Below, one piece after another: positions 1-35,696 of a stretch of 35,696 nucleotides of DNA. This DNA comes from a bacterium (lineage in GTDB: Bacteria > Patescibacteriota > Minisyncoccia > Minisyncoccales > CG1-02-41-26). Under the pieces are notes generated by a model. That model was not told the origin of the DNA. It searched no databases and was given only the letters and a program-made list of their open reading frames with translations. Numbering within the stretch: position 1 is the stretch's first letter; each line of letters opens with the position of its first letter. The DNA is taken from contig JAGGVK010000053.1 in assembly GCA_021158045.1 (NCBI GenBank), positions 1-35,696 of the forward strand, in the 5' to 3' direction. A program made the translations under genes and the position numbers.

Positions 1-150
1 AGAACACCCTGATGTAGGAGAGGGGCTGGGAAGCGTGGATTCCGCTGGAAGCGGGATGACCGTAGAACCGTAGGGTCTCCCGTGTAGGAAAATATTAAAA
101 ACCGAGGGTTGTTAAAGAGTCCCGCTGAAAGCGGGACGATTACCTCCCTG
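1..150. repeat. Partial or diverged copy of the hairpin-rich gene-end element, upstream of rpsU
   Basis: Shares CTCCCGTGTAGGAAAA (77-92) and AACCGAGGGTT (about 100-110) with the reverse complement of the element at 9147-9254; contains hairpin CCCGCTGAAAGCGGG. The window edge truncates the view. Confidence 0.55.
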
Positions 151-8180: not shown

Positions 8181-8400
8181 AAATCTCAAATCTCAAATCT
8201 CAAATCTCAAAATGACATCTCAAAATGCAAAATTAGAAAATTCAAAATGCAAAATTAGAAAAGCAAAATTTCAAATCTCAAATCTCAAAATGCAAAATTA
8301 GAATGCTTGGCTAAGCCAAGCAGCAAGAGAAAAAAGAGATTGCTTCGTCAGTCGCTTCGCTCCTTCCTCGCAATGACAGGGGGAGGAATCGCTTCGCTCA
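8181..8400. repeat. AAATCTCAA-type tandem repeat plus a dispersed TTGCTTCGTCAGTCGCTTCGCTCCTTCCTCGCAATGACA repeat, in the rpsL-rpsG spacer
   Basis: Near-identical modules also occur at 27541-28010 and 35230-35696. Confidence 0.85.
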
Positions 8401-9035: not shown

Positions 9036-9146
9036 TCTCTAATTGATTTCTTATCTTATATATGCCAAGATTATATCCAAATATATGCCAAGATTATATC
9101 CAATAGAAAAAACAAGAGACATTGGTATTATCGCTCATATTGATGC
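9036..9146 (+). pseudogene. Truncated direct copy of the fusA leader and 5' end
   Basis: Nearly identical to 9272-9381 (leader plus [21 protein letters not shown]), then breaks into GTCGC... Confidence 0.9.
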
Positions 9147-9254
9147 GTCGCAGTTAACACTGTTCCCCAGAAACCCTCGGTTTCTGGCGGTCGGCCTTCG
9201 GCCTCCCTGTTTTCCTACACGGGAGGATACCCAATCCTCCCGACCCCTCCTTGT
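9147..9254 (-). mobile_element. Hairpin-rich gene-end element, copy E1 (108 bp)
   Basis: Shares AGGGGTCGGG...CCCGTGTAGGAAAACAGGGAGGCCGAAGGCCGACCGCC...GGGTTTCTGGGGA...GCGAC (reverse strand) with the copy at 19827-20038; flanked by direct and inverted copies of fusA sequence. Confidence 0.75.
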
Positions 9255-9319
9255 GCATCAATATTCGCTTTTCTCTAATTGATTTTTATCTTATATATGC
9301 CAAGATTATATCCAAATAT

Positions 9320-11425
9320 ATGCCAAGATTATATCCAATAGAAAAAACAAGAGACATTGGTATTATCGCTCATATTGATGCTGGTAAAACTACAGTTACT
9401 GAACGTGTTTTGTTTTACACCGGAATATCCCATAAAATTGGAGAAGTCCATAATGGAGAAGCTATTATGGATTGGATGGCTCAAGAGAAGGAAAGGGGCA
9501 TTACTATTACGTCGGCTTCAACAACTTGTCATTGGATTCCTGAAGGCTTGGAGAAGAAAAAAGAAAACGAATATCAAATAAATATTATTGATACGCCCGG
9601 TCACATTGATTTTACAGTAGAAGTTCAAAGAAGTTTACGAGTTTTAGATGGAGCTATTGTTGTTTTTGACGGTGTAGCGGGAGTTGAGCCCCAGTCGGAA
9701 ACTGTTTGGAGGCAGGCTGATAAATTTAATGTTCCTAGAATTTGTTTTGTTAACAAAATGGATAGAATGGGCGCGGATTTTGACAGAAGTTTTCAGTCAA
9801 TCATAGAAAAATTGTCGCCAAATGCTGTAGCAGTCCAAATTCCTATCGGTAAAGAGGATAAATTTGAGGGAGTGATTGACCTTATTAAAATGAAAGCATT
9901 GTATTTTGAAGGTGACTTTGGACAGGATGTTGTTGAAAAGGAAATACCAGAAAATCTAAGAGAGCAAGCAGCCCAGGCAAGAAAGGAAATGTTAGAAAAG
10001 GTAGCAGCAGAAGATGCAACTTTATTAGAAAAGTTCCTTTCAAACAAGGAAATTACCATAGATGAAATCAGGAAAGTTTTAAGAAAGAGCACTTTAAATT
10101 ATAAGCTAATACCTGTTTTTTGCGGGTCTGCCCTTAAAGATAAAGGCATACAACCTTTGTTAGACGCTGTTTGCTATTACTTGCCAAGTCCTAATGACCT
10201 CCCTCCAGTGAAAGGCACGAATCCTTTAACCGGAGATTTTGAGGAAAGGAAACACTTGGATTCTGAACCTCTGGCTGCTTTGGTGTTTAAAATTGCAACT
10301 GACCCTTATGTAGGAGCGCTTAGTTATTTTAGGATTTATTCCGGCTATCTTAGAAAGGGTTCTTATGTTTTAAATACAACGACAGGCGTTAAAGAAAGAA
10401 TAGGTAGAATATTAAGAATGCATGCCAACCAGAGAGTTGAATTAGACGAGGCTTTTGCCGGAGACATTGTGGCTACTGTTGGTCTTAAGAAAACAAGCAC
10501 TGGACACACCCTTTGCGACCCGGCTCATCCCATTGTTTTAGAGAATATTGCTTTTCCTGAGCCTGTAATCTCGGTGAGGGTAGAGCCGAAAACTCGAGCT
10601 GACCAAGAGAAATTGGTAGTGGCTTTAAAGAGGCTATCAGAAGAAGACCCCACATTTCGTATTAAAGAGGATTTAGAAACCGGAGAGACTATAATTTCGG
10701 GCATGGGGGAATTGCACCTTGAAGTTTTAACTGATAGGATGAAAAGAGAGTTTGGTGTTGTAGCCAATGTTGGCAGGCCTCAAGTGGCTTATAAGGAAAC
10801 TGTTTGCAGCGAGAGCGAGGCTGAGGGAAAGTATATTCACCAATCAGGAGGTAGGGGGCAATATGGCCATGTGTGGCTAAGAATAAAGCCAAAGGAGAGG
10901 GGAGAAGGATTTGAGTTTAAAAATGCTATTAAAGGAGGAATTATTCCTCAAGAGTTTATCCCAGCAGTTAAGAAAGGAGTAGTAGAAGCCATGGGAAAGG
11001 GAGTTCTGGCAGGTTATCCAATAGTGGATGTGGAAGTTACATTGTACGACGGTTCTTTCCACGAAGTTGACTCTTCAGAAGTTGCTTTTAAAATTGCAGC
11101 CGCAGAAGCTTTGAAGTCTGCTTCCCAAAAGGCAAAGCCCGTATTATTGGAGCCGATAATGAAAATTGAAGTTATTGTTCCTTCAGAATTCTTTGGAGAT
11201 GTTATTAGTGATTTAAACAGGAGGAGAGGCATTATTGAGGAGACAAAGGATAGGCTTAGCTTAAAAATAATTGACGCGAAAGTTCCCTTAGCGGAGATGT
11301 TTGGCTACGCTACTGGTTTGAGGTCCTTGACTCAAGGGAGAGGAACGTTTACAATGGAATTTGACAGATATGAGAAAGTACCGGAGAATATAAGTCAGGA
11401 GATAATTGAAGGTAAGAGGAAATAG
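9320..11425 (+). CDS. fusA: Elongation factor G
   Basis: [35 protein letters not shown]; full-length EF-G to [22 protein letters not shown]. Confidence 0.96.
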
Positions 11426-11453
11426 TAAATTGAGAAAAGTTAAATTCCATTGT

Positions 11454-11658
11454 TCAGATAGGGGTCGGGGAAGAAGAATTCTTCCCCGTGGCGGAAATCT
11501 CTCTCCAAATCGCCAAAGGCGATTTGGAGGCCACATGAGGTCTCCAATTCCGCTGAAAGCGGAATTGGAGTAATAGCAGGGGTTTTAAGGAGCGAAGCGA
11601 AGCGAGGCTGAGATTGTCGAAGCCGAGCGCCTGCCAAAGGCAGGAGGAGCAGAGCGAC
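11454..11658 (+). mobile_element. Hairpin-rich gene-end element, copy E3 (205 bp)
   Basis: AGGGGTCGGGGAAGAAGAATTCTTCCCCGTG..., paired hairpin module CCAAATCGCC/GGCGATTTGG + TCCAATTCCGC/GCGGAATTGGA, ends GCGAC; opposite orientation to E1 and E2. Confidence 0.75.
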
Positions 11659-11733
11659 ACAATGGAATTTGACAGATATGAGAAAGTACCGGAGAATATT
11701 GCCCAGGAAATCATAGAAGGCAAAAGAAAGTAA
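11659..11733 (+). pseudogene. Displaced fusA 3' end (diverged duplicate)
   Basis: First 41 bp identical to 11351-11391, remaining 34 bp diverged mostly at synonymous sites; encodes [22 protein letters not shown]. Confidence 0.92.
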
Positions 11734-19696: not shown

Positions 19697-19786
19697 TTTA
19701 ATTTTAGATTTTAGATTGTCATTTTTCATTTTTCATTTTTCATTTTTAATTTTCATTTGGCTGAGCCCGCTTTAGCGGGACGAAGG

Positions 19787-19825
19787 AATATGATTCAACC
19801 AGGAACAAAATTGAAAGTAGCTGAT
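19787..19825 (+). pseudogene. Truncated direct copy of the rplN 5' end
   Basis: 39 bp AATATGATTCAACCAGGAACAAAATTGAAAGTAGCTGAT identical to 20105-20143, then breaks into GTCGC... Confidence 0.93.
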
Positions 19826-19826
19826 G

Positions 19827-20038
19827 TCGCTTGCCCTCCTGCCTTCGGTAGGCGCTCACTTCATTCGCTTCGCTCCCCAGAAACCCAGCTTTTACTCCAA
19901 TTCCGCTTCAGCGGAATTGGAGGCCACTTGTGGTCTCCAAATTCGCTTTTTGCGAATTTGGAGTATGTTTGGCGGTCGGCCTTCGGCCTCCCTGTTTTCC
20001 TACACAGGGGAGAATTCTTCTCCCCTGACACCCCTTTG
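19827..20038 (-). mobile_element. Hairpin-rich gene-end element, copy E2 (about 212 bp)
   Basis: Same core as E1 and the same paired hairpin module as E3; bounded by AAAGTAGCTGATG (19814-19826) and its inverted copy CATCAGCTACTTT (20039-20051). Confidence 0.78.
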
Positions 20039-20107
20039 CATCAGCTACTTTTGCCTTATTGACTTTAACTGAATTTAAATTTATTTTAGAAACATTATAG
20101 ACTAAAT

Positions 20108-20476
20108 ATGATTCAACCAGGAACAAAATTGAAAGTAGCTGATAATAGCGGAGCTAAAATTGTGCAGTGTTTTAATTTGCCCGGTGGCACGAGGAAACGT
20201 TATGCTCAACTTGGCGATGTAATTGTAGCTGCAGTTAAGAAAGCTGAGCCAAGAAAAGAAGTTAAACTTCACAGTATTGTAAGGGCAGTTATTGTTAGGC
20301 AAAAAAGAGAATATAAAAGAGAAGATGGCTCATATATTAGATTTGGCGATAATGCTTGTGTAATTTTAGCTGATAAAAAAAATCCAAAAGGAAATAGGAT
20401 TTTAGGGCCTATCCCGAGAGAATTAAAGAGGAAAGGATTTGAAAAAATAGTTACAATGGCAAAGGAAGTAGTTTAG
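20108..20476 (+). CDS. rplN: 50S ribosomal protein uL14
   Basis: MIQPGTKLKVADNSGAKIVQCFNLPGG, FGDNACVILADKKNPKGNRILGPIPREL. Confidence 0.96.
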   Translation: MIQPGTKLKVADNSGAKIVQCFNLPGGTRKRYAQLGDVIVAAVKKAEPRKEVKLHSIVRAVIVRQKREYKREDGSYIRFGDNACVILADKKNPKGNRILGPIPRELKRKGFEKIVTMAKEVV

Positions 20477-23811: not shown

Positions 23812-23945
23812 AAAAGAGAATTAATTTAATTTTGGATTTTAATTATCATTTTTAGATTGTCATTTTTCATTTTTCACTTTTCATTTTTCATTTTTAATTT
23901 AATTTGATTTTAGATTGTCATTTTTCATTTTTCATTTTTAATTTA
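23800..23945 (+). repeat. 34-bp duplicate of the rpsQ 3' end followed by TCATTTTTCATTTTT low-complexity array
   Basis: 23800-23833 is identical to 19672-19705 (GAGCAAGATTGAAAAAGAGAATTAATTTAATTTT); related CATTTTT arrays follow both genes. Confidence 0.88.
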
Positions 23946-27540: not shown

Positions 27541-28010
27541 CCTCTCTTGTCATTGCGAGGAGTCTTCCTCTCTTGTCATTGCGAGGAAGGAGCGCAGCGA
27601 CTGACGAAGCAATCTCTTACGCCTGTCATCACAAGAGCTGTAGCATCCCTTAGCCACGAGCGAAGCGTGATGGGACAGGCAGTAAAAATGAAAGATGAAA
27701 AGTGAAAAATGAAAAACTAAAATCTAAAATTAAAAGAAACTTTGCATTTTGAATTGTCATTTTGAGATTTGAGATTTGAGATTTGAGATTTAACTGGGGT
27801 TCTTCGCTTAACGGCTCAGAATGACAATTGGTAGTTGTTCCATAACGAAGCAATGAGATTGCCGCGTCGTCCCGCCTTCGGCGGAACTCCTCGCAATGAC
27901 AAAAAGGAGCATCATTGTGAGGAACCTCCCTCTCTTGTCATTGCGAGGAAGGAGCGCAGCGACTGACGAAGCAATCTCTTTCCCTCTGTCATCTGAGCGA
28001 AGCGAAGTAT
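27541..28010. repeat. Cluster of dispersed intergenic repeats between map and the galT-like gene
   Basis: TCATTGCGAGGAAGGAGCGCAGCGACTGACGAAGCAATCTCTT at about 27575-27617 and 27940-27982; AAATCTCAA-type tandem (reverse orientation) around 27765-27792. Confidence 0.9.
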
Positions 28011-35157: not shown

Positions 35158-35212
35158 CGAGAAGTATATAGAAATTAGCTGCTATTTTGAATATCCCTAA
35201 TTGTTATTCTGA

Positions 35213-35696
35213 GCCGTTAGGCGAAGAACCCCAGTTAAATCTCAAATCTCAAATCTCAAATCTCAAAATCACCCTGAAGCAGAACAAGTTCGCTACAGGG
35301 CAGGCAATTCGAAATTCAAAATTACATAGAAAGTTCTAAATCCGAAATCCCAAACAAAACTAAATGAGAAATCAAAAATCAAAAATCTAAAGGGCGTTGC
35401 TTAGCTAAGCTAAGCAACGCCCAAAGTAGCGCTCCACTCAGGATGACAGAGGAAAAGGGATTGCTTCGTCAGTCGCTTCGCTCCTTCCTCGCAATGACAA
35501 GAGGGAGAATCGCTTCGCTCCTTCCTCGCAATGACAGGGAGGGAGAGAACTGCAATAACCTCCTTTTTGTCATTGCGAGGAGCTCCGCCGAAGGCGGGAC
35601 GACGCGGCAATCTCATAGCTTCGTCATGGAACGACCACCAATTGTCATTCTGAGCCGTTAGGCGAAGAACCCCAGTTAAATCTCAAATCTCAAATC
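35213..35696. repeat. Dispersed repeat cluster at window end
   Basis: TTCTGAGCCGTTAGGCGAAGAACCCCAGTTAAATCTCAAATCTCAAATC occurs at about 35216-35264 and 35648-35696; inverted counterpart at about 27776-27830. Confidence 0.9.
35392..35422. repeat. 31-nt perfect palindrome GGGCGTTGCTTAGCT-A-AGCTAAGCAACGCCC
   Basis: 15-bp arms around a single central base. Confidence 0.9.

Follow-up and report, generated by a model that had tools for sequence, protein, structure and literature searches.

The 35,696 nt contig JAGGVK010000053.1 of a member of the Patescibacteriota (assembly GCA_021158045.1, order Minisyncoccales), called the window here, carries three copies (E1, E2 and E3) of a non-coding element with a conserved fold, each of which is flanked by direct repeats of a gene end. 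Directly before the structured core of each copy lies an antisense copy of the first 10–14 nt of the repeat, and the GCGAC end of the core abuts the second repeat copy. We place at about one half the probability that these sequences and their relatives, about 130–300 nt in size, are small, non-autonomous, homing-like elements of the ultra-small Patescibacteria that insert precisely 5' of a ~15 nt target via guide pairing; insertion may be guided by base pairing, as the element bears an antisense copy of its landing site. A preliminary description of the region had recognised the fold, which stands, but had not noticed the more important finding, the arrangement of two gene ends and an antisense guide.

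The general layout, seen in about half of the copies of the family, is X / T1 – guide – linker – GGGGTCG core – GCGAC / T2, where T1 and T2 are the two copies of the gene end, X is the side of the element on which the gene interior lies, and the guide is antisense to the first ~15 nt of T1. The flanking repeats in the window are D5 (fusA 5' end, E1), D11 (rplN start, E2) and D8 (fusA 3' end, E3). The copies and their parts are as follows.

21–120, plus strand: a fourth, divergent copy, matched by the covariance model (E = 1e-4)
9048–9146, minus strand: T2 of E1, putative displaced fusA 5' end (repeat D5)
9147–9272, minus strand: E1, inserted near the fusA 5' end
9283–9381, minus strand: T1 of E1, fusA 5' end that would keep the gene intact, 99% identical to T2 (repeat D5)
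11351–11425, plus strand: T1 of E3, putative replacement fusA 3' end through the stop codon (direct repeat D8, T1/T2 comparison)
11440–11453, plus strand: guide of E3, TTAAATTCCATTGT, antisense to the T1/T2 start ACAATGGAATTT(G)A
11454–11658, plus strand: linker, structured core, insert module, terminal hairpin and GCGAC 3' end of E3
11466–11488, plus strand: P2 hairpin of E3 (the first hairpin of the preliminary description), covarying family-wide
11503–11570, plus strand: two-hairpin insert module of E3, within P4, common to E2 and the relative L049 only
11659–11733, plus strand: T2 of E3, putative displaced original fusA 3' end, now outside the gene (direct repeat D8, T1/T2 comparison)
19787–19825, minus strand: T2 of E2, putative displaced rplN start, 39 nt (repeat D11)
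19826–20104, minus strand: E2, at the start of rplN
20105–20143, minus strand: T1 of E2, rplN start that would keep the gene intact (repeat D11)

The GCGAC of E3 occupies nt 11654–11658. On the minus strand, E1 has GTCGC (the reverse complement of GCGAC) at 9147–9151, the core at 9162–9248 and the guide at 9255–9264, while the corresponding parts of E2 lie at 19826–19830, 19932–20033 and 20040–20051.

Complementarity between guide and upstream T1 reached a score of at least 12 in 36% of 118 copies, compared with 0.2% of mismatched-pair controls. Downstream, 42 copies have a guide match of at least 9, and 30 of these matches begin directly after the GCGA-like end. T2 stands in register directly after GCGA in 53 of the 60 copies having a T1–guide stem, a figure that is partly selected because T2 was located by its similarity to T1; the score test on 118 copies is the unbiased one. 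The guide matches T1 better than T2, with pairing per position (positions 2–13) of 83–100% for T1 and 62–87% for T2. Right junctions are exact at GCGAC/T2 even when T2 departs from T1 within its first 7 nt. Guide length is narrow (about 12–16 nt) and its spacing to the core is fixed; some guides form the 3' arm of a terminator-like hairpin with a loop of 1–8 nt. At locus L127, one tRNA bears two complete units in tandem, joined exactly as GCGAC/GGGTTC, which supports the boundaries of the unit, although unequal recombination could also produce tandems. A different tandem arrangement occurs behind a tRNA at L044 (420–700; G000 C43), where the tRNA end sits within an opened P2 loop, resembling a circular permutation of the element.

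Comparison of the repeats suggests that T2 was once the end of a conserved gene and has been displaced, and that T1 is a replacement end that keeps the gene intact. In the 25 coding cases, in which the reading frame continues from X into T1 and closes there with a stop codon, the T1/T2 differences are mainly synonymous (pS 0.60, pN 0.13), indicating that each of the two served as a functional gene end until recently. Genomes G084 and G106 can be aligned at fusA over T2 and the flank downstream of it, which argues that T2 is the native end, and since the gene interior lies on the X side of the element, T1 would restore the gene. The repeats are identical or nearly so over 39–110 nt in E1, E2, L125 and L206, which look like recent or within-lineage insertions. 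Two smaller observations concern T2. Its position 7 is often G where T1 has T (L112, L108, L098, L116, L115 and L084), and seven such T>G changes place guide A opposite G. The presumably displaced tRNA 3' ends (T2 of L043, L085, L095, L135, L137 and L155) usually have 10–16 extra nt in the T-loop, lying between GGTTC and GA.

The gene ends found as T2 include fusA, pgk, rpsI, rpsJ, rplK, secY and tRNAs, the names being our reading of the translated ends rather than database annotation. Orthologous sites are reused across genomes: the fusA 3' end five times, rpsI and pgk three times each, and rpsJ, rpsG, rplK, secY, a PHP-domain gene and gapA twice, in different genomes. The T-arms of tRNAs are a target many times, and the rplL 3' end in another class (L221) shows the same anatomy.

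The preliminary description had proposed, from compensated stem sequences in the three window copies, that the fold is under selection. All of the stems it listed were located in the sequence: the first hairpins of the three copies are GGGAGGAT/ATCCTCCC, GGGGAGAA/TTCTCCCC and GGGGAAGAA/TTCTTCCCC, and the two module stems, the CCT(A/G)CC..AAGGCAGG terminal hairpin and the lack of the module in E1 are as described. The E3 region folds far above shuffled sequence (z -5.3). As three copies are insufficient to establish covariation, the family was enlarged before covariation was tested, and with the larger alignments, which the description had named as a possible refutation, covariation was upheld. 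Among 79 copies, standard pairs fill 97.5% of paired cells and 19 of 22 pairs have changed on both sides, and among 112 copies the values are 97.4% and 18 of 22, percentages that are biased towards the covariance model because the alignments were fitted to it. None of 500 shuffles reached the observed covariation values in either alignment (a statistic inflated by kinship among copies), and sliding the 3' partners by 1–3 columns left pairing at only 33–63% in both. The raw seed sequences, too, display changes on both sides of a pair, for instance from TT/AA to CC/GG at the base of P4. Selection on the fold is thus borne out by covariation over 79–112 copies, with the shuffled and slid controls excluded.

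The conserved core consists of P2, P3 and P4, each helix being individually supported by covariation. Terminal hairpins vary among copies, and the covariation figures refer to the core and not to them. Also strongly conserved are the P4 apex, CCGAGGG, and GTGTAGGAAAACAG, which lies single-stranded between P2 and P3. The view of the element as modular holds in so far as P3, the P5 hairpins and the E2/E3 module are present in some copies and absent from others; the two-hairpin module itself, however, was seen only in E2, E3 and L049, inside P4, and is therefore a peripheral insert and not part of the conserved fold. In the core helices read on the plus strand, G-U outnumbers A-C by 28 to 7, so that the folding strand is probably the one read from guide to GCGAC. 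The description had left open a fold of RNA or of single-stranded DNA (ssDNA); the guide mismatches favour neither. As an additional feature, all copies have a purine tract before GGGGTC on the 5' side of the core (e.g. window 9238–9254, minus strand). It mirrors the P2 5' strand across subfamilies (AGGAGGGG-TC-GGGAGGA, AAAGGGGG-TC-GGGGAAA), and this mirror symmetry lies above shuffles (0/2000), as an antiparallel purine triplex would require.

The distribution of the family was assessed with a covariance model (R1, 87 positions) that was seeded on five copies, E1 and four relatives, and gives rough E-values. Of 246 genomes of the same Patescibacteria order, 85 had matches, with a maximum of 18 copies in one genome and at least 15 in each of four (G039, G084, G104 and G205); many genomes are draft assemblies, some broken at element repeats (C25/C23 in G000). 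In a phylum-wide sample matches were sparse (24 of 384 genomes). Nealsonbacteria, Staskawiczbacteria and Colwellbacteria are among the named records that carry the core. Matches of an 18-base pattern outside the Patescibacteria were dropped, as the covariance model did not confirm them, and searches of viral contigs, phages and plasmids gave no element match. With Rfam 15, only RNase P and two tRNAs in the window exceeded the gathering cut-off, leaving the element unmatched, and E-value scans of E1, E3 and three relatives returned weak sub-threshold matches only. No description of such elements in Patescibacteria was found in the literature searched, which leaves out most subscription journals, and it is in this sense that the family is undescribed.

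A distinct set of copies, class B, has the form CCCATATCGGAG-core-GCGACTAACTTTGTATTACCACTATG, with conserved flanks and without guide pairing. These copies lie 22–25 nt before the start codons of housekeeping genes (nusG, rplN, atpE and rplT) and once before 16S rRNA; they include L055, L056, L075, L082, L090, L097, L101, L121, L141, L194 and others. The fourth window copy (nt 21–120), without a guide and directly before a start codon, looks like this type. Class B is perhaps a domesticated promoter or leader.

A mechanism consistent with the anatomy would have T1 – guide – linker – structured core – GCGAC as the mobile unit. The guide would set the insertion point by pairing with a target (T) that lies close to a conserved gene's end, and a trans-acting enzyme would cut 5' of T, with the folded plus strand (RNA or ssDNA) acting as the guide molecule and its pairing directing insertion. 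Insertion would occur precisely 5' of T, so that GCGAC is joined straight to the recipient's T, now T2, while the carried T1 substitutes for the lost end and the host gene survives. From there the unit could home to orthologues of that gene in other species, with a few guide:T2 mismatches tolerated. More tentatively, and at somewhat under even odds, the element may be regarded as programmable: a ~100 nt structured RNA (or ssDNA) scaffold whose 15 nt 5' guide steers the element precisely into the ends of essential genes, where the carried copy replaces the end and each new site gives a new guide.

Several results weigh against guided homing. About half of the copies have no detectable guide, including class B near start codons, and the missing guides are partly decay and partly this distinct class. 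Searches for Y1 transposases, reverse transcriptases, IS110, TnpB and tyrosine recombinases identified no trans-acting enzyme, and no excised or circular form is visible in the assemblies. Guide mismatches lack the G-T wobble preference (17:17 for guide:T1, 32:37 for guide:T2), and an RNA guide is thus unproven. Finally, T1 and T2 of E3 and L057 are identical for their first 41 and 37 nt, respectively, and diverged thereafter (in E3 mainly at synonymous sites), so a recombination step during or after insertion must be added.

A serious rival, if an unlikely one, is that the antisense copy is a by-product of insertion at breaks or hairpins, where fold-back or template-switch synthesis from the broken end copies T beside T1. 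This would account for each new site having its own matching guide, for the guide fitting the adjacent T1 best, for the lack of wobble bias and for those guides that are merely the 3' arm of a terminator-like hairpin. It does not sit well with the narrow guide length, the fixed core spacing, the T2 register at GCGAC and the repeated use of orthologous sites, and leaves insertion at a recipient T2 that already differed from the guide unexplained. Also improbable, and more so, is that we are dealing with single-strand (HUH, Y1) transposons like IS200/IS605 or REP/RAYT, non-autonomous and moved in trans by a Y1 transposase. Read on the other strand, the element does show a stretch complementary to the target and, at either end, a cleavage site identical to it, a geometry like that of IS200/IS605, and Y1_Tnp genes are common in the order (26 of 36 element-bearing and 15 of 30 element-free genomes). 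However, Y1_Tnp is absent from G000, G014, G023 and G042 and from the two element-richest genomes, G039 and G084 (the genomes are not all complete), so that a Y1 mover is not supported; the plus-strand excess of G-U over A-C is the opposite of what folding of the minus strand predicts, and neither a 15 bp guide nor a carried gene end is known in IS200/IS605-type families.

Integration at the 3' end of a tRNA gene or a conserved protein gene, with restoration of that gene, is classical for tyrosine integrases, and the elements could be miniature integrative elements of such a recombinase. Target choice and gene restoration agree with this, and all four genomes with at least 15 copies have a second PF00589 gene. 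We nevertheless consider it a poor candidate, since these extra genes are polyphyletic, one is a duplicate Xer, none adjoins an element and the element-free genome G010 also has one; nor would recombinase core sites need an antisense copy at each of many unrelated targets. Hardly credible is the idea of structured host RNAs (terminators or leaders) without dedicated mobility, carried along with neighbouring genes by homologous recombination or transformation. The position of class B and its conserved flanks would fit, as would the mosaic nature of some T1/T2 pairs, but homologous recombination does not build the T1–guide–T2 anatomy at dozens of unrelated sites, and the GCGAC/T2 junctions remain exact where T2 diverges at once from T1.

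The element shares features with several known systems. Like IS200/IS605 (IS608, ISDra2) and REP/RAYT sequences, it comprises small, hairpin-rich, non-autonomous copies with precise insertion, and IS608 selects its target by base pairing (PMC5934647). In the present element, guide–target complementarity is strong at the sequence level, and a role of it in target recognition is putative; the element differs in its ~15 nt antisense target copy, the carried gene end, the evidence for a plus-strand fold and the lack of a consistent Y1 gene. The IS110/IS1111 bridge RNA (seekRNA) resembles it as a structured non-coding part, potentially target-pairing, with precise insertion, yet our element pairs with T alone, in one contiguous stretch, and carries T1. 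The IS110 transposase (DEDD_Tnp_IS110) was rejected as mover, being above the cut-off in one of 24 element-bearing genomes and below it in one more, and missing in the other 22; a single IS110-type transposase gene at G000:C4:6741–7193 (L216) is rare among relatives. Group I/II introns and IStrons are also structured, have a stretch complementary to the flank and home into conserved genes that stay functional. In contrast to introns, the element lacks an intron core (Rfam gave no match), its pairing is with the flank downstream, and it requires no splicing because T1 restores the gene. Reverse transcriptases, rejected as movers, do not track it (7 of 24 element-bearing and 9 of 24 element-free genomes; absent from G039, G084 and G205).

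Genomic islands of tyrosine integrases at the 3' ends of tRNA and protein genes likewise use conserved gene ends, bring in a replacement end and leave a displaced remnant. Restoration of the gene end with a displaced remnant is found here too, but at 130–300 nt no integrase gene fits within the unit, and unlike islands it has an antisense target copy and many targets per family. With OMEGA systems (TnpB/IscB and guide RNA) it shares a scaffold plus a short guide, and the IscB-type RNA has its guide at the 5' end; the guide of the element, however, is an internal antisense copy and not the flank. A TnpB-type nuclease was rejected as mover, being present in only two of 24 element-bearing genomes and missing in 22; IscB was not searched for. 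Three features are not known together elsewhere: a conserved structured scaffold, a ~15 nt antisense copy of the target and a replacement gene end, the last of which would make insertion into essential genes harmless. If pairing directs insertion, this would be a new guided DNA-insertion system, almost purely of nucleic acid, in a large uncultivated bacterial phylum, and it would imply that Patescibacteria exchange the ends of their ribosomal and translation genes between species.

Other repeats in the window are separate from this family. A miniature inverted-repeat transposable element (MITE)-like family with TCATTGCGAGGAAGGAGCG...CTTCGTC arms is present at nt 8332–8399, 27550–27618, 27912–27980 and 35453–35557. 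Short AT-rich tandem arrays (TTTTTCATTTTTCAT, AAATCTCAAATCTC) are intergenic (nt 19704–19759, 23831–23944 and 8181–8303), and a GTCATTCTGAGCCGTTAGGCGAAGAACCCC repeat occurs at nt 35199–35255 and 35640–35696, the latter copy at the contig end.
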